Shown: piece by piece, positions 5,109 through 57,083 of the stretch
Layout of the letters: each line of letters starts with the position of its first letter
Position numbering within the stretch: position 1 is the first letter of the stretch
Origin: Acidobacteriota bacterium
GTDB lineage: Bacteria; Acidobacteriota; UBA6911
Reading direction: 5' to 3'
NCBI GenBank assembly: GCA_012729555.1
Contig: JAAYCX010000089.1
Span: 1-64,000, forward strand
Length of the DNA stretch: 64,000 nucleotides
Notes under the pieces: generated by a model
What the model was told of the DNA's origin: nothing
The model's input: only the letters and a program-made list of their open reading frames with translations
Database searches by the model: none
Translations under genes and position numbers: made by a program

Positions 5109-7169
5109 TCAGGCCCCCAGTTTCCCCCGTTCGGCCATGACGTCGGCCACCCGCTTCAGGCCGTAGCCCTCCAGGGTCCGGCGCGTCGGCCAGCCGTTAT
5201 CACGGTCCCACCCTTCCAGTTGGTAATAGTGGGTCTTGAAATCCTCGACCCCCTTCCTGTCCAGGTACATGTCCGGGGCCTCGTCGTGGCGCCACTTGCC
5301 GTTTTCATAGATCGGCACGCCCCCCCAGAAGGTCATTCCGGAGGCGCCGGGCCGGTACATGAAGGGCGCGAAGACCTCCGCCTTCCGGTTGCGGCCGTGC
5401 ATGACGCGGATGGCGCGCTCCAGGGTCCAGATCTTCTGCCCGACGCGCATGGTGTCGGCGAAGGTGTCCTTCTTCCCGGTCACCGCCGTGTAGTACTTCA
5501 TCTCGATCTCGGGGCTGATCGTTTCGAGGTTGGGGAGGAACATCTCGCAGAACGCCATCGACTCGTTCCAGAACGAGGCGTAATGCCGGCTCCACGCGAC
5601 CTCCTTGGCCTTGTGGGGCGAATAGAGTCCCGTCTTCCAGGCCTCCTCCCCCTTCCAGGCGTAGTTGAACATGAAGATGTCGTCCGCGTAGGGCGTCATC
5701 TTCTTCGCCAGCTCCACCAGGGCCTCCTCCGTCGTCTTCCCGCGCGGCTTGCCCACGGCGGTGACCAGGCCGTGCCAGCTCGGGTCGCCCGCGCCGAGCA
5801 GGTAGTTGTAGGCCCATTCGGCGCTCGGCAGGGTCCAGTGACCGGTAGCCCCCCACGCCGGGAAGCGGAGCGCCCCGCTTTCCAGGTCCTGTTCGAGCCG
5901 TCCCCACTTCTCGGCGGCCCGCATGCACCCTTCGGCAAGGGCGTCGCCGATCCCCACGCGCTTGGAGATCGCGTCGAGGAAGGCCAGGCGGAAGCTCAGT
6001 TCCCCCCACTGCTCCATCGGCAGCGGGGCGGAATCGATCCTCTTGCCCGGTCCCAGTTCGCCGATCCGGTGGAGGTAGCGGATATACCACCCGATCCCGG
6101 TCTCCACCGGCACCTTCTTGTCGAAGAAATCGGGGGCGCCGGGGATGTCGGATACGAACAGCCCCAGGAAATGGGCCGACCAGCCGCTGGCGCCGTATTT
6201 CATCAGGGCTTCCGACGCGAGTTCCGCCTCGGAGGCCGCCTGGGCCGATTGCGCCCCCCCGAGCGCCTGTTTTTCGGGATTGGCAAGCCAGTGCTGATCC
6301 ACGCACATGGTCTCCCCGGCGTGGTAGACGTTCCGGCGCCGGTCGGCCCGGAGGCAGGGGTTGCACGATCCCGATCCCGCGCTGGCCGGGGCGAAGCTCC
6401 CGGTCACGAGGCCGCCGCCCGTCATCTGCCAGATCCGGGCGTCCATGACCGCCTTGGCGTCGGCCATCCTCACCGTGCCCGACCCGAGCACGCTGACGGC
6501 CTTGAGGTTCTTGGCGCCGAAGACGGCGCCGAAACCGCCGATCCGCGCGCTGACGCCGCTGCCCGTGATCAGCGCGGCCAGTCTCGAGCGGGCTTCCCCT
6601 ACGGGGCCGATGCAGAGGATCTGCGGGCGCCCGGTGGTGTAGGTGTCCTCCAGTTGCATCCACTCCTCGCCGAAGCGGGCCCTTCCTCCGACCATGGAGG
6701 CGATGCGGTCCTGGGTTTCCCAGGTGTCCCTCCCCCATAGATCCGCGGCGCTTTCGATCCTGACCGCGTCGTTGACGATGTTGATCCATACCGGCCGGTC
6801 GGCCTTCCCCTCCACGACCACGCCGTCCCAGCCGGCCAGTTTCATCATGGTCCCGAACCGTCCGCCGAAATTGCCCCGCCAGAATTCACAGGTGGGGAAG
6901 GTTTCGGGTGATATCCCGCAGATGCTGGTCCGGCCCGCGCCGGGGACCCCGGTGCCGGCCAGAGGGCCGACCATGATCGGGAGGACGTGCCGGGGATCGA
7001 AGGGGTCCTTGAGGTCCCACTCACCCGGGGCGACGGCGAGGTCCCAGAAGATGGCCGCGCCCATGCCATAGCCCCCGCCGAATTCCTCGTACCGGGCGGT
7101 CTCCATGACGGTGACCTCGTTCGTCGACAGATTGACGCGCGCGATCTTTCCTGCGTATCCGTAACTCAT
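5109..7169 (-). CDS. YdhV-like tungsten/molybdenum oxidoreductase (aldehyde:ferredoxin oxidoreductase family)
   Basis: A 686-residue enzyme of the AOR family, which uses a bis-pyranopterin tungsten or molybdenum cofactor and one 4Fe-4S cluster to oxidise aldehydes or related compounds. The N terminus (YAGKIARVNLST) and the [17 protein letters not shown] segment are typical of the family; the C-terminal GWPTRRTLEGYGL matches the E. coli YdhV branch as I remember it. Cluster ligands would be Cys269, Cys272 and Cys541. The position where the family has its third cysteine (CxxCxxxC) is Asp276. It has no signal peptide, while the gene 18 bases upstream encodes a Tat-exported ferredoxin, so it may be cytoplasmic or co-exported. 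Aldehyde substrate unknown. Confidence 0.88.
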   Translation of the reverse strand: MSYGYAGKIARVNLSTNEVTVMETARYEEFGGGYGMGAAIFWDLAVAPGEWDLKDPFDPRHVLPIMVGPLAGTGVPGAGRTSICGISPETFPTCEFWRGNFGGRFGTMMKLAGWDGVVVEGKADRPVWINIVNDAVRIESAADLWGRDTWETQDRIASMVGGRARFGEEWMQLEDTYTTGRPQILCIGPVGEARSRLAALITGSGVSARIGGFGAVFGAKNLKAVSVLGSGTVRMADAKAVMDARIWQMTGGGLVTGSFAPASAGSGSCNPCLRADRRRNVYHAGETMCVDQHWLANPEKQALGGAQSAQAASEAELASEALMKYGASGWSAHFLGLFVSDIPGAPDFFDKKVPVETGIGWYIRYLHRIGELGPGKRIDSAPLPMEQWGELSFRLAFLDAISKRVGIGDALAEGCMRAAEKWGRLEQDLESGALRFPAWGATGHWTLPSAEWAYNYLLGAGDPSWHGLVTAVGKPRGKTTEEALVELAKKMTPYADDIFMFNYAWKGEEAWKTGLYSPHKAKEVAWSRHYASFWNESMAFCEMFLPNLETISPEIEMKYYTAVTGKKDTFADTMRVGQKIWTLERAIRVMHGRNRKAEVFAPFMYRPGASGMTFWGGVPIYENGKWRHDEAPDMYLDRKGVEDFKTHYYQLEGWDRDNGWPTRRTLEGYGLKRVADVMAERGKLGA

Positions 7170-7187
7170 GTCTCTCTCTCCTCTCCC

Positions 7188-7934
7188 TTACGATTTGGAC
7201 GCCGGCTTTTTCGCGGCGGGCGTGGGTGGTTTACCGAACGGCATCTTCGGCCGGGGAGGCACCAGGTTGACGTCGTACCCCGCCACGTCCTCCTGGGGCG
7301 GGGTTTCCCTGACGAGCTTGAGGGCCTTGGCGGGACAGCCGGTGACGCAGGCGGGGTCGCCGTCCGGCCCCCCTTCTCTGCTCCAGAAGGGGGTGTCGAT
7401 ACAAAGGTCGCACTTCGTCGATTTTTTCTTGTACGGGTTCCAGACGGTCCGCCGCGGGTTCTGGGGACACATCTGGAGGCACCGCTTGCAGCCGATGCAC
7501 TTCTCTTCGTCGATCACCCGCACGTTTCCGTGCCCGGTGTCGATGTGGGCGGCCCCGGTCGGGCAGTTCTGCACGCAGAGGGGGGCGACGCACTGGCGGC
7601 AGGGGGACATAACTACATCCAGGGGGTACTTGGTGAAGGACGGGGCGTCGCGGATGATCTGGATCCGGGACAGGGAAGGGTTCGCCTCCCCGTAATGGGC
7701 CATGGAACAGTTGAACATGCAGCTCTGGCAGCCCCAGCAGAGGCGGCTGTCGTAGACGATATACCCGGTCGATGCAGGGTAGGACACCTTGCCGGCGGCG
7801 GGCTGGGCGGCGGCCACGGCGGGTCCGGGGATCTGCGCCGCGAAGGCGCCCGCGGCCAGCGCGGCCCCCCCGCCGACCAGGAACTTGCGCCGGGGGACCT
7901 TACCCTGGGTCCCGGCATTTTCCGATTCAGCCAT
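7188..7934 (-). CDS. Tat-exported ferredoxin-like protein with four 4Fe-4S clusters (YdhX/YdhY-like)
   Basis: Electron-transfer subunit of the DmsB/YdhX type, 248 residues. A Tat signal (PRRKFLVGG at about 14-22, then a hydrophobic stretch and AAA) directs it across the membrane folded. Cysteine groups follow in the usual four-cluster order: CWGCQSCMFNC, CRQC...CVQNC, CIGCKRCLQMC and CDLC...CVTGC. The C terminus is rich in Pro, Lys and Ala. It is the first gene of a two-gene unit with the YdhV-like oxidoreductase and is the likely partner that takes its electrons. E. coli ydh operons pair the same two families. An AT-rich promoter region with a palindrome lies upstream. Confidence 0.87.
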   Translation of the reverse strand: MAESENAGTQGKVPRRKFLVGGGAALAAGAFAAQIPGPAVAAAQPAAGKVSYPASTGYIVYDSRLCWGCQSCMFNCSMAHYGEANPSLSRIQIIRDAPSFTKYPLDVVMSPCRQCVAPLCVQNCPTGAAHIDTGHGNVRVIDEEKCIGCKRCLQMCPQNPRRTVWNPYKKKSTKCDLCIDTPFWSREGGPDGDPACVTGCPAKALKLVRETPPQEDVAGYDVNLVPPRPKMPFGKPPTPAAKKPASKS

Positions 7935-8013
7935 AAAACGGTCTTCTCCTTCGATAAGGCGACGCCACGGGGGCGAACGCCTGCCCGCCCCTCCCAGTAT
8001 CGCACCCGATATC

Positions 8014-8030
8014 TGGGAATAATATTACCA
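8014..8030. promoter_or_regulatory. 17-bp palindrome, candidate operator
   Basis: TGGGAATAATATTACCA reads TGGnAATAnTATTnCCA, symmetric at 14 of 17 positions. It overlaps the proposed -10 box of the ferredoxin/oxidoreductase unit, where a repressor could block transcription. The whole stretch 8005-8075 is AT-rich in an otherwise GC-rich region. The regulator is unknown. Confidence 0.45.
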
Positions 8031-8051
8031 AATCTTACAAAAAATACCCAA
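8022..8051 (-). promoter_or_regulatory. Candidate promoter for the ferredoxin/YdhV-like operon
   Basis: Reading the minus strand, TTGGGT (8046-8051) and TAATAT (8022-8027) are 18 bases apart, about 90 bases before the ATG at 7934. The -35 match is moderate. Confidence 0.4.
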
Positions 8052-8096
8052 ATATGAACAAAAAGGAAAAACAATGGCCTATCTGCAGGCAAGATT

Positions 8097-8135
8097 CCCC
8101 CGGAGTCGACGGCAGCGGGCGCCGTCTTCCGGGGG
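8097..8135 (-). terminator. Hairpin after the DUF481 gene, possible terminator
   Basis: An outer stem of eight pairs (CCCCCGGA with TCCGGGGG) encloses a six-pair inner stem (GACGGC with GCCGTC) and a seven-base loop. It lies 21 bases past the stop at 8156. The bases after it on the minus strand (AATCTT) are only weakly T-rich. Confidence 0.45.
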
Positions 8136-8155
8136 AGGTTCTCGGGGCGGGGGGG

Positions 8156-9217
8156 TCAGTTGGCGAAGGTGATCCCCAGGCCGGTGGTGTACATGAAATC
8201 GTTGTTCTGCCTGCCGGGGGCCGGGTCGCTCAGGTAGCGGTCGCTGATCGACACGTTCCAGGTCAGCCATTTCAGCAGCTTGGTGTTGAGCCCGAGGTCG
8301 AAGTTGACACGGTACATCCCCGAGTTGGTCATGTCGTTGAACATCCGGTAGCTCTGGACCAGGCTCGCGGCGGAGTTGAGCTTGATCGAGAGTTCGTCCC
8401 CCCAGTAGATCTCGCCCGATTCCCTGATAAGGGGGGTGCTGAAGCTCGAACGGTTGTAGGCGCCGCCCGCCAGGAGGTCGAGCCGCACCCGGTCGTTGGC
8501 GATGGCGTGGTACCCCATGCCGCCGCCGAGGACGAAGCGGAGGTCCAGGTTTTGGAAGCGGTCATATTCGTAGTCGTTGAAGGCGCTGAAGAAGAGGCGC
8601 GGGGTGATGTCGCGCCCGTAGCTGATCCCCCCGCGGACGGCCTCGGCCGTGTCCTCGCTGACATCGTCGATGCGGGCGGAGGCCTTGATGAGGCTGAAGT
8701 AGATGGAGGTCTTGTCGCTGCGGGTCCTCCGGTCGGCGTTGATCCCGGTGGTGAACGTCAGGGTCCTGGCGTTCCCCGACGTGCCGGCGAAGCCGACGGT
8801 CCCGGTCCCGGTCCACAACTGGAGCCAGCCGGGGTTGAGAAGCCGCTGATAGGCCTTCTCTTCGGCATCGTCGCGGATGGCGCTGATATCTCCGAACGCC
8901 AGTTCCCTCACGGCGTCGGCCGTCTTCACCTCGGCCTTGTCCCCCTCGAGGGTAAAGGTGCCGTGAAGGGTCGGGCCCGCGGCGGGGACGACGTAGACCG
9001 GGGTGTCGGCCGCGACCGACTCCACCTGGTCCCAGGGAACGGTGACGGCCCCCATCTGTTCCGTCTTGATGGTGAGGCCGGCGTCCTGCTTTTTCACGAT
9101 GCTGCCCGTCAGGCGGTCGCCGTTCTTGAGCACCACCTGGTCCGCCCGGGCCGCGGTCGCGGCGATAAGAAAGGACAGGCAGAAAACAGACAAGCTGAAA
9201 ATACGGGTATTGCGCAT
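8156..9217 (-). CDS. DUF481 outer-membrane protein
   Basis: A 353-residue exported protein with a DUF481 (YdiY-like) C-terminal barrel, a family of outer-membrane proteins of unknown function. The signal peptide is residues 1-25 (ends ATAARA). Residues about 26-70 (VLKNGDRLTGSIVKK, then VPWDQVESV) match the short beta domain often found ahead of DUF481. The rest alternates in the way of beta strands, including GLSLMA-free, aromatic-rich segments such as LFFSAFNDYEYDRF, and ends TGLGITFAN. It has its own promoter inside the 3' end of the NapH-like gene and a hairpin after the stop, so it may be separately transcribed from the three membrane genes upstream. Confidence 0.82.
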   Translation of the reverse strand: MRNTRIFSLSVFCLSFLIAATAARADQVVLKNGDRLTGSIVKKQDAGLTIKTEQMGAVTVPWDQVESVAADTPVYVVPAAGPTLHGTFTLEGDKAEVKTADAVRELAFGDISAIRDDAEEKAYQRLLNPGWLQLWTGTGTVGFAGTSGNARTLTFTTGINADRRTRSDKTSIYFSLIKASARIDDVSEDTAEAVRGGISYGRDITPRLFFSAFNDYEYDRFQNLDLRFVLGGGMGYHAIANDRVRLDLLAGGAYNRSSFSTPLIRESGEIYWGDELSIKLNSAASLVQSYRMFNDMTNSGMYRVNFDLGLNTKLLKWLTWNVSISDRYLSDPAPGRQNNDFMYTTGLGITFAN

Positions 9218-9271
9218 GGGAACCCTCCCCTCAAGGTTGAATGCCGAATCCCCCTATGGATGCGGATTATA

Positions 9272-9300
9272 TTTATATGTCACGGTTTCCCGGCGTTCAA
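9272..9300 (-). promoter_or_regulatory. Promoter for the DUF481 gene
   Basis: On the minus strand TTGAAC (9295-9300), a 17-base spacer and TATAAA (9272-9277). A second -10-like TATAAT overlaps at 9266-9271. It lies across the last codons of the NapH-like gene. Confidence 0.55.
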
Positions 9301-10467
9301 GGCCGCATCTGCGCGACCGGCTTCCGCTCCCCGGGGCCAGCCCCAGACCATGGCATCGCGCGGGCAGACCTTCAGGCACCGGGCGCAGCTGTAGCAGTCG
9401 GCGGGGAAGGATCTTCCCTCGACCCGGTCCCCGGCCGCCTCGAGGGGACACGCGGCGACGCAGGCGCCGCACTCGTCGCACTTCGCCCGGTCGATTCGGA
9501 CGCGGGCGAGGCTGAACCGCTCGGCCAGCCAGGAGACCAGGCCGAAAGGGCAGACGAACTGGCAGAAGGGGCGGTAGAGGAGGAGCGAGAGCCCCAGGGC
9601 GAGCAGGATCGTCAGGGTCACCGACAGGGGCGAGAAATCGAGGTTGAAGAGGTTGAAAGGGTTCAGGGAGTGGTAGAGCACGAAACCCTTGGAGCGCCCG
9701 ACGACGCCGAAGAGGAGGAGGAGGGCCAGGACGAAAAGGAGGGCGCGGACGCCGTTGGACCAGACGAACGGGACTTTTTTCCTTTTGAGCCGCCGCATCA
9801 GGGGGAGGCTGTAGATCAGTTCCTGCAGGGCGCCGAACGGACAGGCCCAGCCGCAGACCAGCTTGTTCCCCACGACGGCCAGGAGGAGGAAGAAGAGGAG
9901 GGCGGCCGCTTCCGCGGCCACCGAGGGGTAGAGCCCGGCCATGGCCTTCGGGACCTTGACGATCCCCTCCATCGGGTTCGGTGATTTGCCCAGGGCGAAA
10001 CCGCTCGCGATCCCGGCCGCCACGAGCGTCAGGATGTAGGGGAGGCGCGGGTACCACCCCCTCCGCCCTTCGACCGGGGACCCGTCCGGGCGCCCGAGAC
10101 GCCAGAGGAACACGATGCCCCAGAGCACCAGGGCCGCGTAAACGTAATAGCGCAGCCGCGAGGGGCGGTGGCCGGCGAGGTGATGGACCACCTCGTCCAG
10201 TCCTTCCTGCCCGACTCCGAGGCCTTTGAGCGGCTTTCCCTTGGGCGCATCGACCGGGAGCCCCAATTCCCGGGCCAGTGCCATGCCCGTCACCCCCAGT
10301 TCGGGCGCGATCTCCCGGATCGACGAGTCGACGGTGAACGCGGACCCGGGGAGGGCGGCGGATCCGGGCTCGAGAATCCAGCCGGCACCGATGATGGTGA
10401 CGGCAGCCAGGAGGGTGAGTGCGAACCAGAGGCGCTGTGCGCGGGACAGAGCCGCAAACCAGGTCAT
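9280..10467 (-). CDS. NapH-like membrane ferredoxin (4Fe-4S, quinol-oxidoreductase type)
   Basis: A 395-residue polytopic protein of the NapH/NosR/PceC class, which passes electrons between membrane quinones and periplasmic or cytoplasmic partners. Visible membrane segments are near 10-30, 105-122, 141-160, 185-205, 250-270 and 285-305. Two CxxxCP loops (CGWACPFGALQE and CQFVCPFGLVSW) are the family hallmark. Two 4Fe-4S motifs close the protein (CDECGACVAACP and CYSCARCLKVCP). It is third in a minus-strand unit after the CcsA-like and ResB-like genes (39-base gap). The neighbouring oxidoreductase/ferredoxin unit makes it a candidate electron outlet; that link is inferred. Confidence 0.85.
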   Translation of the reverse strand: MTWFAALSRAQRLWFALTLLAAVTIIGAGWILEPGSAALPGSAFTVDSSIREIAPELGVTGMALARELGLPVDAPKGKPLKGLGVGQEGLDEVVHHLAGHRPSRLRYYVYAALVLWGIVFLWRLGRPDGSPVEGRRGWYPRLPYILTLVAAGIASGFALGKSPNPMEGIVKVPKAMAGLYPSVAAEAAALLFFLLLAVVGNKLVCGWACPFGALQELIYSLPLMRRLKRKKVPFVWSNGVRALLFVLALLLLFGVVGRSKGFVLYHSLNPFNLFNLDFSPLSVTLTILLALGLSLLLYRPFCQFVCPFGLVSWLAERFSLARVRIDRAKCDECGACVAACPLEAAGDRVEGRSFPADCYSCARCLKVCPRDAMVWGWPRGAEAGRADAALNAGKP

Positions 10468-10506
10468 GCGTACCCCCTTTCCCCGATGGGGTGGCCGCCG
10501 GGAGCC

Positions 10507-11283
10507 CTAATCGGCCGCCTTCTCCTCCGCATAATAATAGAGAGTCAGCAGAATGAGGATAAAAAAACAGGTCATGATCAGGCCCAGCCCCGGATCGCTC
10601 TTGACCAGGAGTTCGAATTCGGGCGTGGTGTACGGGGCGGCCTTCCCGGGGGCGCCCGCCTGCATCATGTGGATCTGAAACCCGTTTGAGTGGAGAGGCC
10701 GCCCGATCTCGACCTGCCGGCGCTCCCCGGCGCCGAAAACGATTTCGGCGCGGCACTGCCGGATGCTCCCGGCGAACGGACCCTGGAAGAACTCGCACCG
10801 GGGCTCCCCCACCGCCATCGCCAGGTTGCCCGGAAGGGTGTAGTGTGCCGTTTCCCCCGGGCGGCTGACGAATTCCATGCTCCGGCTCCGGAACCCGACG
10901 CACATGGAGGCGAAATGGCCCGCGAGGATGATGCCGAAGCAGGCGTGGATGAGGGAGGGGGTGACCCTGGTCAAGAAGGTGCGCGTCCCCGTGCTGCTGC
11001 GGCGGTTCCAGTGATAGGCCAGGCGGTCGAGGATGCAGCAGGCCGTATTGACCCCGAGCAGGAAGAGGACGAGGGCCAGAAGCGGCAGCCACCAGGTCTT
11101 GTCGAGGTTGCCGGTCCCCCACTCCCGCAGCCAGTCCTCGAGCAGCATCCGGTTGAGGGGGTCGAACACGGCCTTGCCCGACTTGACGTAAAGGCCGCCG
11201 GTCACAAAGAGGGCTATGGAGGCCCAGAGCAGCCAGAGGGTCAGGTTGACCCCGGCCAGGAATTTCCAGATTCTGTTCCCCAT
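10507..11283 (-). CDS. ResB-like membrane protein, short form
   Basis: A 258-residue protein resembling ResB/Ccs1, a component of system II cytochrome c maturation, but about half the usual length. It has transmembrane segments near 10-32 (LTLWLLWASIALFVTGGLYV), 65-84, 108-127 and 232-250, with a periplasmic domain of about 105 residues between the last two. It starts ten bases after the CcsA-like gene, the normal ResB/ResC pairing. No c-type cytochrome gene is in this unit. A role in heme delivery is possible but not assured because the partner lacks its heme motif. Confidence 0.7.
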   Translation of the reverse strand: MGNRIWKFLAGVNLTLWLLWASIALFVTGGLYVKSGKAVFDPLNRMLLEDWLREWGTGNLDKTWWLPLLALVLFLLGVNTACCILDRLAYHWNRRSSTGTRTFLTRVTPSLIHACFGIILAGHFASMCVGFRSRSMEFVSRPGETAHYTLPGNLAMAVGEPRCEFFQGPFAGSIRQCRAEIVFGAGERRQVEIGRPLHSNGFQIHMMQAGAPGKAAPYTTPEFELLVKSDPGLGLIMTCFFILILLTLYYYAEEKAAD

Positions 11284-11293
11284 GGCGGTCTTC

Positions 11294-12067
11294 CTATGAA
11301 GTCAGCTTGCCCAGGAAATAGGCAAGGTAGCGAAAGTAAAGGACAGGGATAAAAGCGATGGCGACCAGGCGCGCGCGCCGCGGGGCGGGCCACCCGGGGA
11401 GGAACCTGAGATGGAGGTAGAGGGCGAGGAAGAGCCAGAAGGCGGCCGAGTTGTAATGCCGGTCGGAGGAGAGGTGGAAGGGGACGGCCCACCCCAGGTA
11501 GCTCCAGACCGCTCCCAGGACCTGCGAGAGGCTGAAGAGGACGAAACTCAGGATGAGGTAGTTGTGAAAGGTGCCCGGCAGGTCCCGCCGGCGGAGGTGC
11601 CCGAGTGCGAACCAGCAGGCCATGAAGAAGGCGGCGTACGCCACGCTCTCGGTGAAGAAGAAGGCCGTGACCCAGCCGACCGGGTGCATCGGCCCCGGCG
11701 GGTATACCAGCGATCCCTGGGCGGCCAGCACCCGGGTCTGGAGCGAGGTGAGGAGGGCGACGGCGAAGATGAGGATGACGGCGGTGTGCGCGGCATCCTT
11801 GCGGTCCGAAAAGAACCGGTGCAGGAGCGCCAGCGCGGCAAGCGCCCAGGGGAGGAACACCTCGAGCGATACGATGGTGTTGGGCAGGAAGATGCCACTC
11901 GAGCGGCCCAGGCCCAGGAGAAACCACCCCTGCAGGAGGAATCCCGCCAGGAGAAGGGAGGGGCCTGCGGCCTTCAGCCTGCCGGGCCGGCAGGCGAGGG
12001 CCGAGAGGCCGAAGGCGGCCGCGGCGGCGTACTGCGCCCAGTAAGGTATGGCGTTCGGTTCGGTCAT
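11294..12067 (-). CDS. CcsA/ResC-like membrane protein lacking the WWD heme motif
   Basis: A 257-residue protein with about eight transmembrane segments, similar to the cytochrome c assembly CcsA/CcmC fold. The region GAVWSYLGW...LALYLHLR lines up with the CcsA signature around its WWD motif, but the WGxxWxWDPKE core is replaced by WAVPFHLSSDRH. The histidine expected in the preceding conserved helix is also not seen (TESVAYAAFF). The start at ATG 12067 has AAGGA upstream and a -10 box at 12095-12100. It leads the unit CcsA-like, ResB-like, NapH-like. It could be a divergent heme protein or a subunit repurposed for quinone-linked electron transfer. Confidence 0.7.
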   Translation of the reverse strand: MTEPNAIPYWAQYAAAAAFGLSALACRPGRLKAAGPSLLLAGFLLQGWFLLGLGRSSGIFLPNTIVSLEVFLPWALAALALLHRFFSDRKDAAHTAVILIFAVALLTSLQTRVLAAQGSLVYPPGPMHPVGWVTAFFFTESVAYAAFFMACWFALGHLRRRDLPGTFHNYLILSFVLFSLSQVLGAVWSYLGWAVPFHLSSDRHYNSAAFWLFLALYLHLRFLPGWPAPRRARLVAIAFIPVLYFRYLAYFLGKLTS

Positions 12068-49661: not shown

Positions 49662-50225
49662 CTACCAGCTGATGACGGCGCCCGCCGTGGTCTGGATGAA
49701 ATGGAGGGAGCCGTCCTGCGCGTCCGGGACCTGGTAGCCGCGCACGTCGATGTTCAGGCCCAGGGGCCCCAGGAGGCGCCGCAGCTTGATCCCCCCACCG
49801 TAGTTGACCGTGAAGCGGGTGCCGAAGCCGAAGGCCGCGGCCGCCAGGTCTTCGAGGCCCATGTCCGGATCGGAATCGGGGCCCCAGGTGCGGATGAACC
49901 CGATGCCGGCCGTCGCGTAGGGGACGACCCTCCCCGGGGCTTGCAGGACCAGGTTGGTGTCCATCTGGAACGCCTTGACCCCCTCCTTGGCGAACCTGGG
50001 ACTGAAGCTGATGTTCTGTTCGAAGCCGAGGACGCGCCCCGCTGAGAACCGGGCCCCCATGGTGGCTCCGAAGTCCCCCTCCAGCAAGTCTTCCGGGGCC
50101 TCGGCGGCGGCGTCGAAGGTGAGCTTGCCCGGCTTCTGGGCCCCCCCGTAGAATATGGCTTCGCCCGCCGTCAGAAGCGGGGCGGCCGACAGGACGAGTA
50201 CGAGCGTCACTACCAGTTTTTTCAT
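49662..50225 (-). CDS. Small outer-membrane beta-barrel protein
   Basis: A 187-residue exported protein. Signal peptide to about residue 20 (MKKLVVTLVLVLSAAPLLTA). The rest reads as beta strands (GATMGARFSAGRVLGFEQNISFSPRF, VPYATAGIGFIRTW, RFTVNYGGGIKLRR) like OmpA-barrel-type families. GGGAGG precedes ATG 50225. It lies 56 bases after the AGCS symporter gene on the same strand. Role unknown. Confidence 0.75.
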   Translation of the reverse strand: MKKLVVTLVLVLSAAPLLTAGEAIFYGGAQKPGKLTFDAAAEAPEDLLEGDFGATMGARFSAGRVLGFEQNISFSPRFAKEGVKAFQMDTNLVLQAPGRVVPYATAGIGFIRTWGPDSDPDMGLEDLAAAAFGFGTRFTVNYGGGIKLRRLLGPLGLNIDVRGYQVPDAQDGSLHFIQTTAGAVISW

Positions 50226-50281
50226 GAAACCTCCCTGGAGACGTATCGGACGCCGGGCCGTGAATGTCCAGAAAAAAACCT

Positions 50282-51682
50282 TTACCTTCGTGGATCTTCC
50301 CCGCCGAAATACCGGCGCGTCTCCGCGGCCACCACGCCCGAAAGGAGCAGGAGGCCGAGGAGGTTCGGGAGCGCCATCAGCCCGTTCATCAGGTCGGCGA
50401 AATTCCAGACCAGCTGGAACCCCCGGATGTCCGGGAGCGTCAATACCCATGCGCCCACGAAAGAGGCCGCGATGAAGGCCACCCGGTAGGGGAAGACGGC
50501 CTTCGGACCGAGGAGGTATTCGATGTTGCGCTCCCCGTAGTAGGCCCATCCCAGGATGGTCGAGAAGGCGAAGAGCGCCAGCCCGGCCGCCACGATCATC
50601 CCCCCCCACGCGCCCGGGAGCCCGGTGCTGAACGCCTCGATGGTGAGGGGGGCCCCGGTCCACCCCTGCCCGGTGGCGGGATCGGAGCGTGTCCAGGCTC
50701 CCGTGGCGATGATGACGAATCCCGTCAGGGAGCAGACGACGATGGTGTCGATGAAGGTCTGGGTCATCGACACCAGGGCCTGGGTCACCGGCTCGCGGGT
50801 CCGGGCCGCCGCGGCCGCGATGCCGCCCGTGCCCAGTCCCGATTCGTTGGAAAACACCCCCCGGGCCACCCCCATCCGGATCGCGGCCGCCAGCGTAGCC
50901 CCCGCGAACCCCCCGACCGGCGCGGCCGGGCGGAAGGCGTCGCCGACGACATACAGGAATATTTCCGGGATCCCGCGCCAGTTGACGGCCAGCACGACCA
51001 GCGCCCCCGCCATGTAGAACAGGATCATCAGCGGCACGAAAAACCCGGTGAACCGCCCGATGGAGCGGATGCCGCCCAGGATCACGGCCCCCGCCAGCGC
51101 CGCGATGACGACGCCGGTCCAGAAGGGGTCGACGCGGAAGGAGCTGCGCAGGGCGTCCGCGACGGAGTTGGACTGCACCATGTTGCCGATGCCGAAGGCG
51201 GCCCCCGCCGCGCAGAAGGCGAAGGCGCCCCCCAGAAACCGGCCGCGGCGGCCGCCGATCCCCCGGGACAGGTAGCACTGCGGCCCGCCGTTCATCTCGC
51301 CGCGCCGGTCTGCGAAGCGGTAGCGCACGCCGAGGAGCGCCTCGGCGTATTTGGTCGCCATTCCCGCGAGCCCCGTGATCCACATCCAGAAGAGGGCCCC
51401 CGGCCCCCCCACCGCGATCGCGGTCGCCACCCCCGCGATGTTGCCGGTCCCGACCGTGGCCGCCAGGGCCGTCATCAGTGCCTGGAAGTGGGAGATATCC
51501 CCCCGGGCGCCCTCTTCCCGCCGCTGGATCAGGGCCAGGTGAAGGGAGCGGCCGAGCCGGCGGAACTGGAGTCCCCGGAGCAGGATCGTGAGCCAGGCGC
51601 CGGTCCCGACCAGCAGCAGGAGCAGGGGCCAGCCCCAGATCATGCCGCTGGCCGCCTCGATCCATGATTCCAACGCGTTCAC
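50282..51682 (-). CDS. AGCS-family sodium:alanine/glycine symporter
   Basis: A 466-residue transporter with about eleven helices importing alanine or glycine with Na+. Family blocks are [61 protein letters not shown] and [13 protein letters not shown]. The start is GTG 51682 with GAGGG upstream; the longer in-frame ATG would add a non-homologous extension. A TATACT box on the minus strand at about 51729-51734 may be its -10, overlapping the control region of the divergent YedY-like gene. Confidence 0.9.
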
Positions 51683-51754
51683 AGGGCCCTCGCAGGGAAA
51701 GAATGCACGACGACGCCGATGGCGGCAGGAGTATACCATCCTCCGCCGCCCGGG

Positions 51755-51760
51755 TATAAT
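51755..51760 (+). promoter_or_regulatory. -10 box (TATAAT) ahead of the YedY-like gene
   Basis: A consensus -10 hexamer 38 bases before ATG 51799. No good -35 is visible. The message could continue through the next two genes, since no terminator is seen before 54982. Confidence 0.4.
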
Positions 51761-51798
51761 GGAGAGACCGGGAATCCCCCGGCAGGATCGAGGCGCCG

Positions 51799-52545
51799 AT
51801 GAAAACGCAAATCCCGCAATCGACCGGTCCGGTTGTTGCCTTCTCCCGGAATTTCGGGCGCCGGCTCGCGCTCAAGGCCCTGGGCGTCGCCGCTCTGCTG
51901 GCCTCCCTCCCGTCCGCCCTGCGGGCCTATTTCGTCCGGAGCCTCCCCGTCCGGACGGTCGAGAAGGAGACGTTCCTCTTCGATCCCGCCTCCGGTTCCC
52001 TGTTCTGGAAAGAGGAAAAACGGAGCGAGCCCTTCCGCCTGTCCATCGGGGGGATGGTGGGGAACTCCAGGGACCTGGCCTACGGGGAACTGCTCGCCCT
52101 CCCCCGGATTTCCCAGACCTCCGATTTCCACTGCGTCGAAGGGTGGTCGGTGAAGGACATCGTCTGGGAGGGGTTCCGCTTCGCCGAAATCGTCCGGATC
52201 GCGCGCCCGCTCCCCGGGGCCCGGTACGCCGTGTTTCACTCCCTCGGCGAGACCTCGAGCGCCCCCCGGGGGCAGCGCCACTACATCGAATGCCTCCCGG
52301 TAGCGGCCCTCGTCGACCCGGCGCGGGAATGCCTGCTCGCCCTGGCCATCAGCGGCAAACCGCTGCCGCACGATCACGGCGCCCCGCTGCGCCTGGTTGC
52401 CCCCCCCGATCTAGGCTACAAGAGCATCAAGTATGTCCGCCGGATCGAGTTCGTCGCCGACCCCGTTCCCGGCTGGTGGACCCTGGCCAACCCCGTCTAC
52501 CCCGCCGACGCCCCCGTCCCGGCCTCGAGGCTGAGAAGGAAGTAG
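51799..52545 (+). CDS. YedY-like molybdopterin-dependent oxidoreductase (sulfite-oxidase fold)
   Basis: A 248-residue catalytic subunit of the sulfite-oxidase/MsrP type, holding a molybdenum or tungsten pterin. Cys112 in [10 protein letters not shown] is the cofactor ligand. Further family blocks are [31 protein letters not shown] and [12 protein letters not shown]. The N terminus has a twin arginine at 21-22 ([20 protein letters not shown]), a plausible Tat signal. No YedZ-type heme partner is adjacent. The two genes downstream are a strange exported pair, so it may belong to a wider cofactor-linked module. Confidence 0.85.
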
Positions 52546-52643
52546 GGCCCGCCCCGGGGAGCCCGGAGAGACCGAAAAAGGTTACGGGATATTACATCAA
52601 AGGATAAAAAATGACATAATGCCCCTTTTCGGGAGGAGGGGGT

Positions 52644-53501
52644 ATGTGTCGATGGGCGGTCCGGAAAGGGGCCCTGGTCTTTCTGTTTACGGCCTGGATC
52701 TGTCCCGGGCCCGTTTTCGGCGGCGAGGGGCGGCTGTCGCTGGTGGGGATGGGGCCGGGAGATCCCGACCTGGCCACCGTCAGGGCCCTGGGACGGGTGC
52801 GGGAAGCCGATATCGTCTATACCCTGAGCCCCGATCTCCTGGAGCGCTTCGAGGCGGAATTCGAGGGGAAAGAGGTTCGGAACCTTTCAGGTTCGGGCGT
52901 CACCCGGCATCACGCCCGCTCCGACAGCGGCGATGCCCTCGCCGGGAAGGCATCGGCGCCGACCGCGGGGGAAAAGACCCGCGGGGGTCTCGTCCGCGAG
53001 GTGAAACGCGCCCTGGGCGAGGGGAAGAAGATCGTTTTCGTCGACAGCGGCGACCCGCTGATCTACGGCCCCTGGGTGTGGCTCCTCGGGGAGTTCGGGG
53101 ACTCCGGCATGGAGGTCGTGCCGGGCGTGAGCTCCTTCAACGCGGGGCTTGCCGCCCTGCGGCGCGACCCCACCTGGTCCCCCGAAACCCACACCATCAT
53201 CCTGACCACCGACCGGGCGCGGAGCGGAGACAGGCTGGAGGAACTGGCCGCGCACCGCTGCAGCCTGGTCCTGTTCACCCACAAAACGGAATTCCCGGAG
53301 ATGATGCGCAAGCTCACGACCCGGTATCCGGCGGCGACCCCGGTCGCCGTGGTGTTCTATGCCGGGTACGAAGGTCGGGAGTCGGTGGTGCGGGGCACCC
53401 TCGAGACCATCGTGCCGCTGATGGCGGACAGGGACCTGCCGCTCGAGCACATCGTTTTCGTAGGGGATTTCCTCGACTATCGCCTGGAGGGGGAGCGATG
53501 A
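52644..53501 (+). CDS. Tetrapyrrole (precorrin-type) methylase with N-terminal signal peptide
   Basis: A 285-residue protein of the SAM-dependent tetrapyrrole methylase fold (CobM/CbiF/RsmI superfamily). The SAM loop is LVGMGPGDP at 33-41, DSGDPLIYG is at 134-142 and VVPGVSSFNAG at 158-168. Family members normally start just before the first motif; here 25-27 extra residues (basic start, then ALVFLFTAWICPGPVFGG) look like a Sec signal. A strong GGAGGAGGG ribosome site fixes ATG 52644. Residues 80-115 hold an unusual loop with paired histidines (TRHHAR). It overlaps the next gene by four bases. Target and source of SAM outside the cytoplasm are unknown. Confidence 0.82.
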   Translation: MCRWAVRKGALVFLFTAWICPGPVFGGEGRLSLVGMGPGDPDLATVRALGRVREADIVYTLSPDLLERFEAEFEGKEVRNLSGSGVTRHHARSDSGDALAGKASAPTAGEKTRGGLVREVKRALGEGKKIVFVDSGDPLIYGPWVWLLGEFGDSGMEVVPGVSSFNAGLAALRRDPTWSPETHTIILTTDRARSGDRLEELAAHRCSLVLFTHKTEFPEMMRKLTTRYPAATPVAVVFYAGYEGRESVVRGTLETIVPLMADRDLPLEHIVFVGDFLDYRLEGER

Positions 53502-54982
53502 AGGGACAGATGCCTGCCGGGATGGTTCTGGCGCTGCTGCTCGCGTTTTTGCCGGTCCGGGGAGGGTGGGGGGCTGAATGCGTCTCCTGCCACCAGGCCC
53601 GCGGCGTACAGGAGCGGGTGGCCGATCTCGATCCGATCCGGATCCGGACGGACGAGGGGGTCCGGAGCATCACCCTCGGGGAGGCCTACAGGTTCCACGG
53701 CCACTCCTGCCCCGGGCTGACCCTCACCTTCCGGGCGGCGCAGTACGGCATCCGGCTGCTGTTCGGGGAAGAGGTCCCGGACCGGAGGGACCTCCAGGTC
53801 CTGACCCGGGCCCCGCTGGCCGGAGGGTTCGATCTCCTCGACCTTCTCATGACGGGCGAGGGGCGGAAAACCCCGACGCGCCCCCCGGAGGGGATGGCGC
53901 GGGACCGGGACCTGATCGCCTTCACCTTCATCCGGAAATCGACCCGGACGGCGGTGGACGTCCGGATGAAGCCGGAGCATTACCCGGAGGATTTCTTCGC
54001 CTACAAGAAGAAGCAGTCCGACGGCACGCTCACCCCCGCCGAATGGGAGGTGCTCCATGGTTATATCAAGGGGATGATCCTCCGTTTCCCCGCCCTCTCC
54101 CTCGAACGCCTCTTCGGCGAGCCCCGGCCCTACCCGCTCCTCGCCTGGGGGGAGGCGCTCCCGGCCCACGAGCGAGCGGCAGCGCCGGCGCCGGAGTACG
54201 GGCAGATCGTGGTGGCCACGGGAAGCCCCTACGAACTGGGGCTGGTCGACGAACTCGCCCGGGCTTTTACGGCCGGGCACGGGGGGGCGGTCCGCTGCAT
54301 CAAGACCCCGACCGGACCGGGTCTCGACCTGGGCCGGAACGGGCTGGCCCATATCACGATCGGCCACGAGAGGGAGGCCACGGCCCGCTTCGCCGCCGAG
54401 GGACACGCGGCCCGCAGGACCGACCTGATGCACAACTACACCGTCATCGTCGGGCCGCGCGGCGACCCGGCTGGGATCGACGGAGTCCGGGATCTCGGGG
54501 AGGCGCACCGGAGGATCTTCCGCGCCGGGGCCCCCTACCTGTCCCGGGGGGACGGCGGCGGCATGCACCTCCTGGAACGGAAGACCTGGGAATCGCTGGG
54601 CCTGGACCCCGCCGGAACCGGCTGGTACGCGACCAGCCGCCGGTTCATGCTCGATTCGCTCCACGATGCCGACGCGCGCGGGCAATACCACATGCTCGAT
54701 TCCTCGACCTGGGCCACGCACAAGGCGGAGACGAAAAACCTCAGGCTCTTCGTCCTGGGCCCGCCCAACCGCTACGAGATCTGCCTGGTGAGCGCGGAGA
54801 AACACCCCCACCTCTCCTACAACCGGGGGCTGGCCGAAGCCTTCTACGAGTTTCTCACCGGGGATGAGGGGCAGCGCGTGATCGCCCGCTTCGGCGTCGG
54901 GCAATACGGCGAACCGCTCTACCACCCCTCGCGAAACGGGGCAGGGGGGGAGGCCGGGGACCGCTCCGGGCAAAAGCGTTGA
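53498..54982 (+). CDS. Exported fusion: c-type heme motif, FmdE-like domain and TupA-like solute-binding domain
   Basis: A 494-residue protein. A signal peptide (to about 26) is followed at once by CVSCH (28-32), a c-type heme attachment motif. Residues about 58-210 resemble FmdE (HGHSCPG at 67-73, then [12 protein letters not shown]), but the second conserved cysteine region of FmdE is replaced by a loop without cysteine. Residues about 233-480 match the tungstate-binding TupA ([56 protein letters not shown]). In TupA the SRGD loop continues DSGT; here it is GGGM, so the ligand may differ from tungstate. Translationally coupled to the exported methylase. Confidence 0.83.
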
Positions 54983-55007
54983 CGGGCGCGGCGGGGCGGC
55001 ATACTCT
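54979..55007 (+). promoter_or_regulatory. Promoter for the YyaL-like gene
   Basis: TTGACG (54979-54984, overlapping the previous stop codon), a 17-base spacer and TACTCT (55002-55007). The expected start of transcription coincides with ATG 55014. Confidence 0.55.
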
Positions 55008-55013
55008 GGATTC

Positions 55014-57083
55014 ATGAGCGAGCCCCGACACGCCAACGCCCTGATTCACGAGACCAGCCCATACCTTCTCCAGCACGCCCACAACCCCGTGGACTGGTAT
55101 CCGTGGGGGCCGGAGGCCCTCCGGAGGGCCAGGGAAGAGGACAAGCCCATTCTCCTGAGCATCGGCTACTCCGCCTGCCACTGGTGCCACGTGATGGAGC
55201 GGGAGTCCTTCGAGGACGAGGAGACCGCCAGGGTGATGAACGCCTGCTTCGTCAACATCAAGGTCGACCGGGAGGAGCGGCCGGACCTGGACGCCATCTA
55301 CATGACGGCGGTTCAGCTGATGACGGGGCGTGGCGGCTGGCCCATGACGGTATTCCTGACGCCGGCCCAGAAGCCCTTTTTCTGCGGCACCTATTTCCCG
55401 AAGGAGGACCGGCACGGCCTCCCCGGTTTCCGCCGGGTGCTGGCCGGCGTCGCCAGCGCCTACGAGGAGAAGCGGCACAAGATCCTGAGGGACGCGGACG
55501 CCGTCACCGAGGCGCTGGCCGCCTCGCTCCAGGGGGCCGGCGGGGAGGGGGGGGGCGCTCCCGCTCTCGACGCCGCGCTCCTCGGGCGGGCGGCCGGGGC
55601 GATCGCCGCCGGCCATGATCCGGTCGACGGGGGATTCGGCGGGGCCCCCAAGTTCCCCCCATCCATGAGCCTCCGCTTCCTCATGCGCGCGGCGGTCAGG
55701 GAGCGCGACCGCCGGTACATGGACATCGTCGCGCACACCCTCCGGCGCATGGCCTCGGGCGGCATCTACGACCAGCTGGGGGGCGGGTTCCACCGCTACT
55801 CGGTGGACGCCCGCTGGCTGGTCCCCCACTTCGAGAAGATGCTGTACGACAACGCCCTGCTCGGCCGGGCCTATCTCGAGGCGCACCTCCTCACGGGCGA
55901 TCCCTTCTTCCGCGAAATCTGCGAGGAGACCCTCGACTACGTCGTCCGGGAAATGACGGCGCCGGAGGGGGGGTTCTGCTCCTCCCAGGACGCCGACAGC
56001 GAAGGGGAGGAGGGGGCCTTCTTCACCTGGACGGAGGAGGAGATCCGGTCGCTGCTCGGGGCGGAGGACGCCCGGCTTTTGGGCCTCTATTACGGGGTCA
56101 CGCCGGGGGGCAATTTCGAAGGGAAGAACATCCTCCATGTCCCCCGGCCCGCGGCGGAGGCGGCCCGGGCCGCCGGGGTCCCGGAGGCGCGGCTGGAGGA
56201 GGCGGTCGGCGCCGGACGGCGGCTGCTCGCGGCCGCGCGGGAGGAGCGGGTGAAGCCGGGGCGGGACGAGAAGGTCCTCACCGCCTGGAACGGGCTGATG
56301 CTCGGGACCTTCGCGGAGGCTTCGAGCGCCCTCGGCCGAGAGGATTACGGGCGGGTCGCGGTGCAGAACGCGCGCTTCCTCCTCTCCGCCCTGTGCGGGC
56401 CCGGAGGGGTGCGGCGCAGCTACAAGGACGGCCGCGCGCGCTTCGACGGCTGCCTGGAGGACTACGCCTGCCTGGTGGACGGGCTCGTCTCGCTCTACGA
56501 GGCCGACTTCGACCCCTCCTGGATCCGGGAGGCGGAGCGGCTGGCCGGGGAGATGGCCGACCGGTTCTGGGACGCCGACGGCGGGGGGTTTTTCTTTACG
56601 GCGAAGGACCACGAGGCGCTGATCCACCGGCCGAAGGAGTTCTGGGACAACGCGACCCCCTCGGGGAATTCGGTCGCCGCCCTTGCGCTGCTGCGCCTCG
56701 GGGCGCTGACGGGGGAAGAGCGCTGGAGAGGGTACGCGGAGGCGATCCTGGAGCTCAACGCGGGGGCGATAGCGCGTCATCCGGCCGCTTTCGGCCACCT
56801 CCTCGGCGCCTTCGATTTCCACCTCGGTCCCGTCCGGGAGATCGCGGTCGCGGGGGACCCGGGGACGGGGGCCGCGCGGGAGATGCTGCGCGAGATCTTC
56901 GGGCGCTATCTACCCAACAAGGCGGTGGCCTGCGGGACAGGCGGCGGGCCGGCCCTGCTCGAACTGAGGCCCGCCGGGGCGGGGGAGGCGACGGCATGGG
57001 TGTGCGAGGGCTCGACCTGTCTCGAGCCGGCCGCCTCCGTCGGGGAGTTGAGGGAGCGGCTCGGCCCTCCCTCCCGATTTTGA
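55014..57083 (+). CDS. YyaL/DUF255 thioredoxin-domain protein
   Basis: A 689-residue cytoplasmic protein with an N-terminal thioredoxin-like DUF255 domain ([22 protein letters not shown], then [12 protein letters not shown] with the CxxC) and a large alpha/alpha-barrel domain like N-acylglucosamine epimerases ([64 protein letters not shown]). The family occurs from bacteria to humans (SPATA20); its biochemical role is not established. No ribosome site precedes the ATG and the promoter position suggests a leaderless message. Confidence 0.92.

Follow-up and report, generated by a model that had tools for sequence, protein, structure and literature searches.

Two overlapping genes at this locus encode exported proteins, one with the fold of a tetrapyrrole methylase (TPM) and the other combining a haem-binding motif, an FmdE-fold domain and a TupA-like domain (haem-FmdE-TupA-like fusion). 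What might these proteins do together outside the cytoplasm, and does the YedY-like gene upstream belong with them? In the window (the whole stretch of 64,000 nucleotides analysed here; G and L numbers are our handles for genomes and loci), we confirmed three open reading frames on the plus strand, all three of which obtained a coding score from a purpose-written codon-usage gene caller (Table 1). The last two share the four bases ATGA, and export signals, read from the sequence, are evident in both. The initial annotation had described three same-strand genes, the last two overlapping by four bases and bearing export signals, and in these respects it was accurate. It had also placed no terminator between the genes. 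We found no terminator-like site in the 98-bp gap at 52546-52643, but this gap contains a conserved promoter-like site, the sole such match in the region, just 5' of the TPM gene. A search of Rfam across positions 50000-56000 gave no match.

Table 1. Features of the locus and of its context in the window.
Feature	Position	Strand	Basis or remark
YedY/MsrP-like molybdopterin protein, Tat-like signal	51799..52545	+	Pfam Oxidored_molyb (PF00174), 9e-32; non-constant neighbour
Promoter-like site (ATTACA, 18 nt, CATAAT)	52591-52620	+	Upstream of TPM gene; also in G172, G085
Exported tetrapyrrole-methylase-fold protein (TPM), 285 aa	52644..53501	+	Pfam TP_methylase (PF00590), 2.3e-39; closest characterised relatives CbiF/CobM
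TPM signal peptide region MCRWAVRKGALVFLFTAWICPGPVFG	52644..52721	+	Read from sequence
TPM SAM-site motif 1, VGMGPGDPD	52743..52769	+	G11, P12, G13 invariant in 25 exported homologues
TPM SAM-site motif 2, DSGDPLIYGPW	53043..53075	+	D111, P112, L113, I114, G116, P117, W118 invariant in 25 exported homologues
Exported fusion, 494 aa: signal, CxxCH, FmdE-fold domain, TupA-like solute-binding domain	53498..54982	+	Pfam PBP_like_2, 7e-14, and FmdE, 5.7e-08; encoded as two genes in G113, G199, G200, G203
CVSCH, c-type haem attachment motif	53579..53593	+	CxxCH in 10/11 haem-FmdE sequences
HGHSC, FmdE-domain metal-site motif	53696..53710	+	Invariant in haem-FmdE alignment
TupA-like solute-binding domain, ATGSP replacing TTTS	54191..54940	+	Sequence comparison
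ResB-like partner	10507..11283	-	56% homologue beside haem-FmdE in G113
CcsB-like cytochrome c synthase subunit	11294..12067	-	59% homologue directly after haem-FmdE in G113

Homologues of the two overlapping genes are inherited together. Among ten genomes of the genus, TPM and the haem-FmdE part are both present in six, where they are always adjacent, and both are absent from four (Fisher p 0.005 for this both-or-neither pattern, uncorrected for kinship). The FmdE and TupA-like parts are fused in the window genome (G000), G085 and G172; in G113, G199 and G200 two genes, placed around that for TPM, encode them separately. The same split triad is found in one Desulfobacterota genome, a Deltaproteobacteria MAG (L058/G203), and its GC content (0.457, against 0.44-0.47 in the surroundings) does not suggest that the locus was misbinned. 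That these parts are fused in one lineage and encoded by separate but neighbouring genes in another speaks for their working together. Together, these results demonstrate that the gene pair is the core of the locus, and that the exported TPM, the haem-FmdE and the TupA-like parts form a real module. The earlier reading was to fail if homologues rarely occurred together or always adjoined an unrelated, well-known pathway, and it withstands this check; of the three-gene module that it proposed, these three parts stand and the YedY-like gene, discussed below, does not.

TPM has both the TP-methylase fold and the SAM-site motifs. Its AF2 model (pLDDT 81) has CbiF/CobM as top PDB matches (TMt 0.81-0.87), and the motifs are invariant in an alignment of the 25 exported homologues, which come from three phyla. 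TPM thus shares with the precorrin-4 C11-methyltransferase CbiF/CobM, of the TP_methylase family, both the SAM-site motifs and the fold (TMt up to 0.87). Unlike that enzyme, it carries a signal peptide, sits outside any cobalamin operon, and scores 107.2 bits with the NCBIfam model cobM_cbiF, below the cut-off of 259.65; the motif DPLIxGPW is specific to the exported clade and not to CbiF/CobM. The predicted signal peptide and the lack of cob/cbi methylase genes alongside argue against a role in cytoplasmic cobalamin synthesis. Most of the exported homologues likewise have a hydrophobic N-terminus, and a cytoplasmic SUMT in L064 has none. A fold familiar from cytoplasmic tetrapyrrole synthesis recurs here in a family of exported proteins, which spans at least three phyla and has its SAM site intact. 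Our literature search returned no match for an exported tetrapyrrole methylase, nor for an FmdE-TupA protein.

The family is spread well beyond this genus: in sampled genomes, we found exported TPM in 34 of 395 Desulfobacterota and in 2 of 294 Planctomycetota, figures that led us to reject the Planctomycetes as its main home. At 21/24 Desulfobacterota loci (17/20 in a second survey plus 4/4 from a first scan), a TonB-dependent receptor is adjacent to TPM or at most two genes away; this is a raw count that relies on our gene caller and on BLAST labels, with no baseline of matched random genes, and includes loci that share a genome (four from G390, two from G233), a receptor assigned by Pfam (L166) and another assigned by its similarity to that one (L168). 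DUF4198, an amino-acid permease, ExbB/ExbD/TonB, CbiM/CbiQ/CbiO and CcsB/ResB also recur near TPM. Exported TPM has partners in common with Ni/Co uptake clusters (DUF4198, CbiMQO/NikMQO), adjoining DUF4198 at many loci and Cbi transporter genes at a few; unlike such clusters, the window pair has neither DUF4198 nor CbiMQO as a neighbour, and many Planctomycete homologues have no metal-transport neighbour. In G604 and G264 the haem-FmdE gene comes immediately after a TonB receptor gene or overlaps it, a TupA-like protein of the ATGSP type adjoins TPM in G360, and in G470 a single operon encodes a TonB receptor, an FmdE-fold protein lacking CxxCH, TPM, a tautomerase, CcsB and ResB. Within the genus, TonB-receptor adjacency to the TPM or haem-FmdE genes is restricted to G113 and G200: in the window, as in the two further genomes that have the fusion, the pair has no adjoining receptor gene. 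Each of the six carriers does encode an orthologue of the G113 receptor, with at least 55% identity (divided between two contigs in G172); at the orthologue's loci in G000, G085 and G199 we found no TPM alongside, gene calling being poor in the G000 stretch.

Several further architectures were seen. Exported proteins of about 546-568 aa contain tandem double TPM domains (L156, L157, L159, L160, L163); a DUF4198::TPM fusion adjoins a TonB receptor (L075:9212-10774); and exported Oxidored_molyb-like::TPM fusions occur (L043:1750-3492, L076:13725-15449), with a permease gene adjacent in the window's own genome. In Planctomycetota, exported TPM often lies near a DUF1559-like pseudopilin gene, as judged by eye (L060-L062, L064-L066, L070, L072-L074).

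Because TonB receptors are recurring neighbours of TPM and FmdE homologues in this wider context, we favour a reading in terms of TonB-dependent uptake. We hypothesize, with a probability of roughly one half, that the pair (52644-54982) specifies the periplasmic part of a system that acquires a metal-containing ligand, which might be a metallotetrapyrrole or some other complex of a transition metal. The ligand would enter the periplasm through an outer-membrane TonB receptor; there the exported TPM-fold protein would bind it, acting as a carrier or, given a supply of SAM or an analogue, as an enzyme that modifies it; the FmdE domain, whose HxHxC site lies beside a c-type haem, would bind or redox-handle the metal; and the fused TupA-like domain would capture a small solute or hand it to an inner-membrane transporter. 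The model rests on protein architecture, sequence-read export signals, conserved motifs, co-inheritance, fused and split genes, and TonB linkage elsewhere, and from these we infer the shared substrate, the direction and each biochemical step. Against it, the window pair has no TonB receptor gene next to it, and the closest receptor orthologue lies elsewhere in the window genome. The invariant SAM motifs without a known periplasmic SAM pool, the missing fourth ligand of the FmdE site (both described below) and the rarity of Planctomycete homologues, a good share of them lacking metal-transport neighbours, also count against it. The TPM-linked receptors match several receptor classes, so that homology does not single out a substrate. 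The pair looks like part of an undescribed import system for a metal-containing nutrient. A bolder form of this idea, a periplasmic tetrapyrrole-handling pathway, is tentative and on balance improbable: a TonB receptor (containing selenocysteine in some lineages) would import a metallotetrapyrrole or similar metal complex, the SAM-motif-bearing TPM would bind or remodel it, and the haem-FmdE protein would remove or reduce the metal before inward transport.

We also considered that TPM might be a true periplasmic methyltransferase, which would use exported SAM to methylate an imported or periplasmic tetrapyrrole and thereby provide a modified haem or corrinoid for the FmdE haem protein. To our knowledge, there is no free periplasmic pool of SAM, yet the SAM-site motifs of TPM are invariant, and the CbiF/CobM fold and the recurrence of CcsB/ResB and CxxCH proteins nearby also agree with such an enzyme. 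We noticed no SAM exporter near any locus, however, and a TPM paralogue in the same genome has lost the GPGD motif (GTS instead) while keeping its export signal; the fusions of homologues to DUF4198 or Oxidored_molyb-like domains fit a binding role. Weighing these observations, we regard periplasmic methylation as unlikely.

In the fusion protein, ECVSCH follows immediately after the signal, and the TupA-like domain lies C-terminal to the FmdE part. The single exception to CxxCH among the 11 haem-FmdE sequences is CxxSH in L102; the full sequence from L050 has CxxCH. The FmdE part scores 33.3 bits with PF02663, above the gathering threshold of 22.9, and its model (pLDDT 90) has 2gvi and 2glz as top fold matches, consistent with an FmdE fold. 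In crystals of FmdE proteins, the residues equivalent to HxHxC bind Zn or Ni, together with a fourth, cysteine ligand (PMC2954224). The window protein thus shares fold and metal-site motif with FmdE. Unlike FmdE, it is exported, has CxxCH in front, is fused to a solute-binding domain and lacks the fourth ligand: no fourth conserved cysteine was found in our alignment.

The TupA-like domain bears on a further alternative, in which it would bind an oxyanion, with the FmdE domain and haem assisting, so that the module supplies tungstate or molybdate to the genome's many tungsten AOR enzymes. Tungstate binding by TupA is attributed to a TTTS motif plus R118, T124 and D170 (PMC5517513). The domain has the TupA fold, is 35% identical to the TupA encoded by this genome, and keeps equivalents of S12, H59, R118 and D170; it differs from the TupA of TupABC in that TTTS is replaced by ATGS and T124 by M, and it has no tupB or tupC adjoining the pair. 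It scores 63.2 bits with the NCBIfam TupA model, far below the cut-off of 400, and a canonical TupABC with TTTS is encoded elsewhere in the genome, adjoining moeA-like genes. By its sequence, then, this domain is not a predicted tungstate binder, and the label TupA given to it in the initial annotation calls for correction. In G113 and G200 a TOBE molbindin gene does adjoin the triad, and AOR-family genes are numerous in the window genome, but they are equally present in genomes that lack the module: we found them in 10/10, which made AOR co-occurrence useless as a discriminator. In addition, TPM homologues lie mostly near TonB receptor or DUF4198 genes and not near Mo/W genes. From these results, we conclude that supply of the Mo/W enzymes, as originally suggested, has little likelihood.

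The YedY-like protein has the Mo-ligating cysteine, C112 in HCVEGWS, which alignment pairs with CVEAWS in YedY; its score with the NCBIfam MsrP model, 88.3 bits, does not reach the cut-off of 207. Its gene is intact solely in the window and G172; a 34-codon remnant is left in G085, and no copy is found at the other loci, so that it is deleted or absent at 5/7 loci. The promoter-like site is kept in G085 although the YedY-like gene upstream of it is gone there. Because the gene is deleted or absent at relatives' loci and the promoter-like site upstream of TPM is conserved, the YedY-like gene probably forms a unit of its own, and we rejected it as a member of the module. In a respiratory or redox-accessory role, without import, the fusion protein and TPM would serve the maturation or protection of an extracytoplasmic Mo/W enzyme or cytochrome, for instance the YedY-like protein. 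This idea could draw on the position of the YedY-like gene in the window and G172, on the Oxidored_molyb-like::TPM fusions and on the link to CcsB/ResB, but it is very doubtful given the loss of the gene elsewhere, the separate promoter-like site and the dominance of TonB receptors as neighbours in other lineages.

The CcsB/ResB proteins of the window are candidates that could attach the haem of the haem-FmdE protein, judging from their relatives in G113. Co-occurrence of CcsB with the module is partial: we found it in five of the six carriers and also in G188. The two genes lie in a cluster (5109-12067) with genes for an AOR-family enzyme, a Tat-signal 4Fe-4S protein (ferredoxin) and a NapH-like protein; our search reported 16 AOR matches for the genome.

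The acquisition model also touches on selenocysteine TonB receptors, families NF049944-NF049947, which are adjacent partners of exported TPM at several Desulfobacterota loci. Three receptors contain one in-frame TGA in RLPCP-U-DYYWWARC (L068:4324-6474, L172:6901-8976, L173:2158-4134); our gene caller had split all three at this codon. With TGA read as selenocysteine, they score 1081-1158 bits with NF049947 (PCPU), above the cut-off of 800, and by motif and family match they are predicted members of that family. The PCP-U motif is found in L141, L142, L144 and L150 as well; L141 and L142 coincide with L172 and L173, which leaves five distinct PCP-U loci. Other TPM-linked receptors match the FCYXU family, which is listed among selenoproteins (PMC13188914), with scores below its cut-off. 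In the accessible papers on NF049944-NF049947, the receptors alone are reported, and we found no TPM, FmdE or TupA partner there. Identifying the TPM ligand would assign a substrate to these newly listed receptors, and would also test for SAM-type or tetrapyrrole chemistry outside the cytoplasm. Apart from these genes, the window contains, by eye, a group II intron-type reverse transcriptase at 354-1616.
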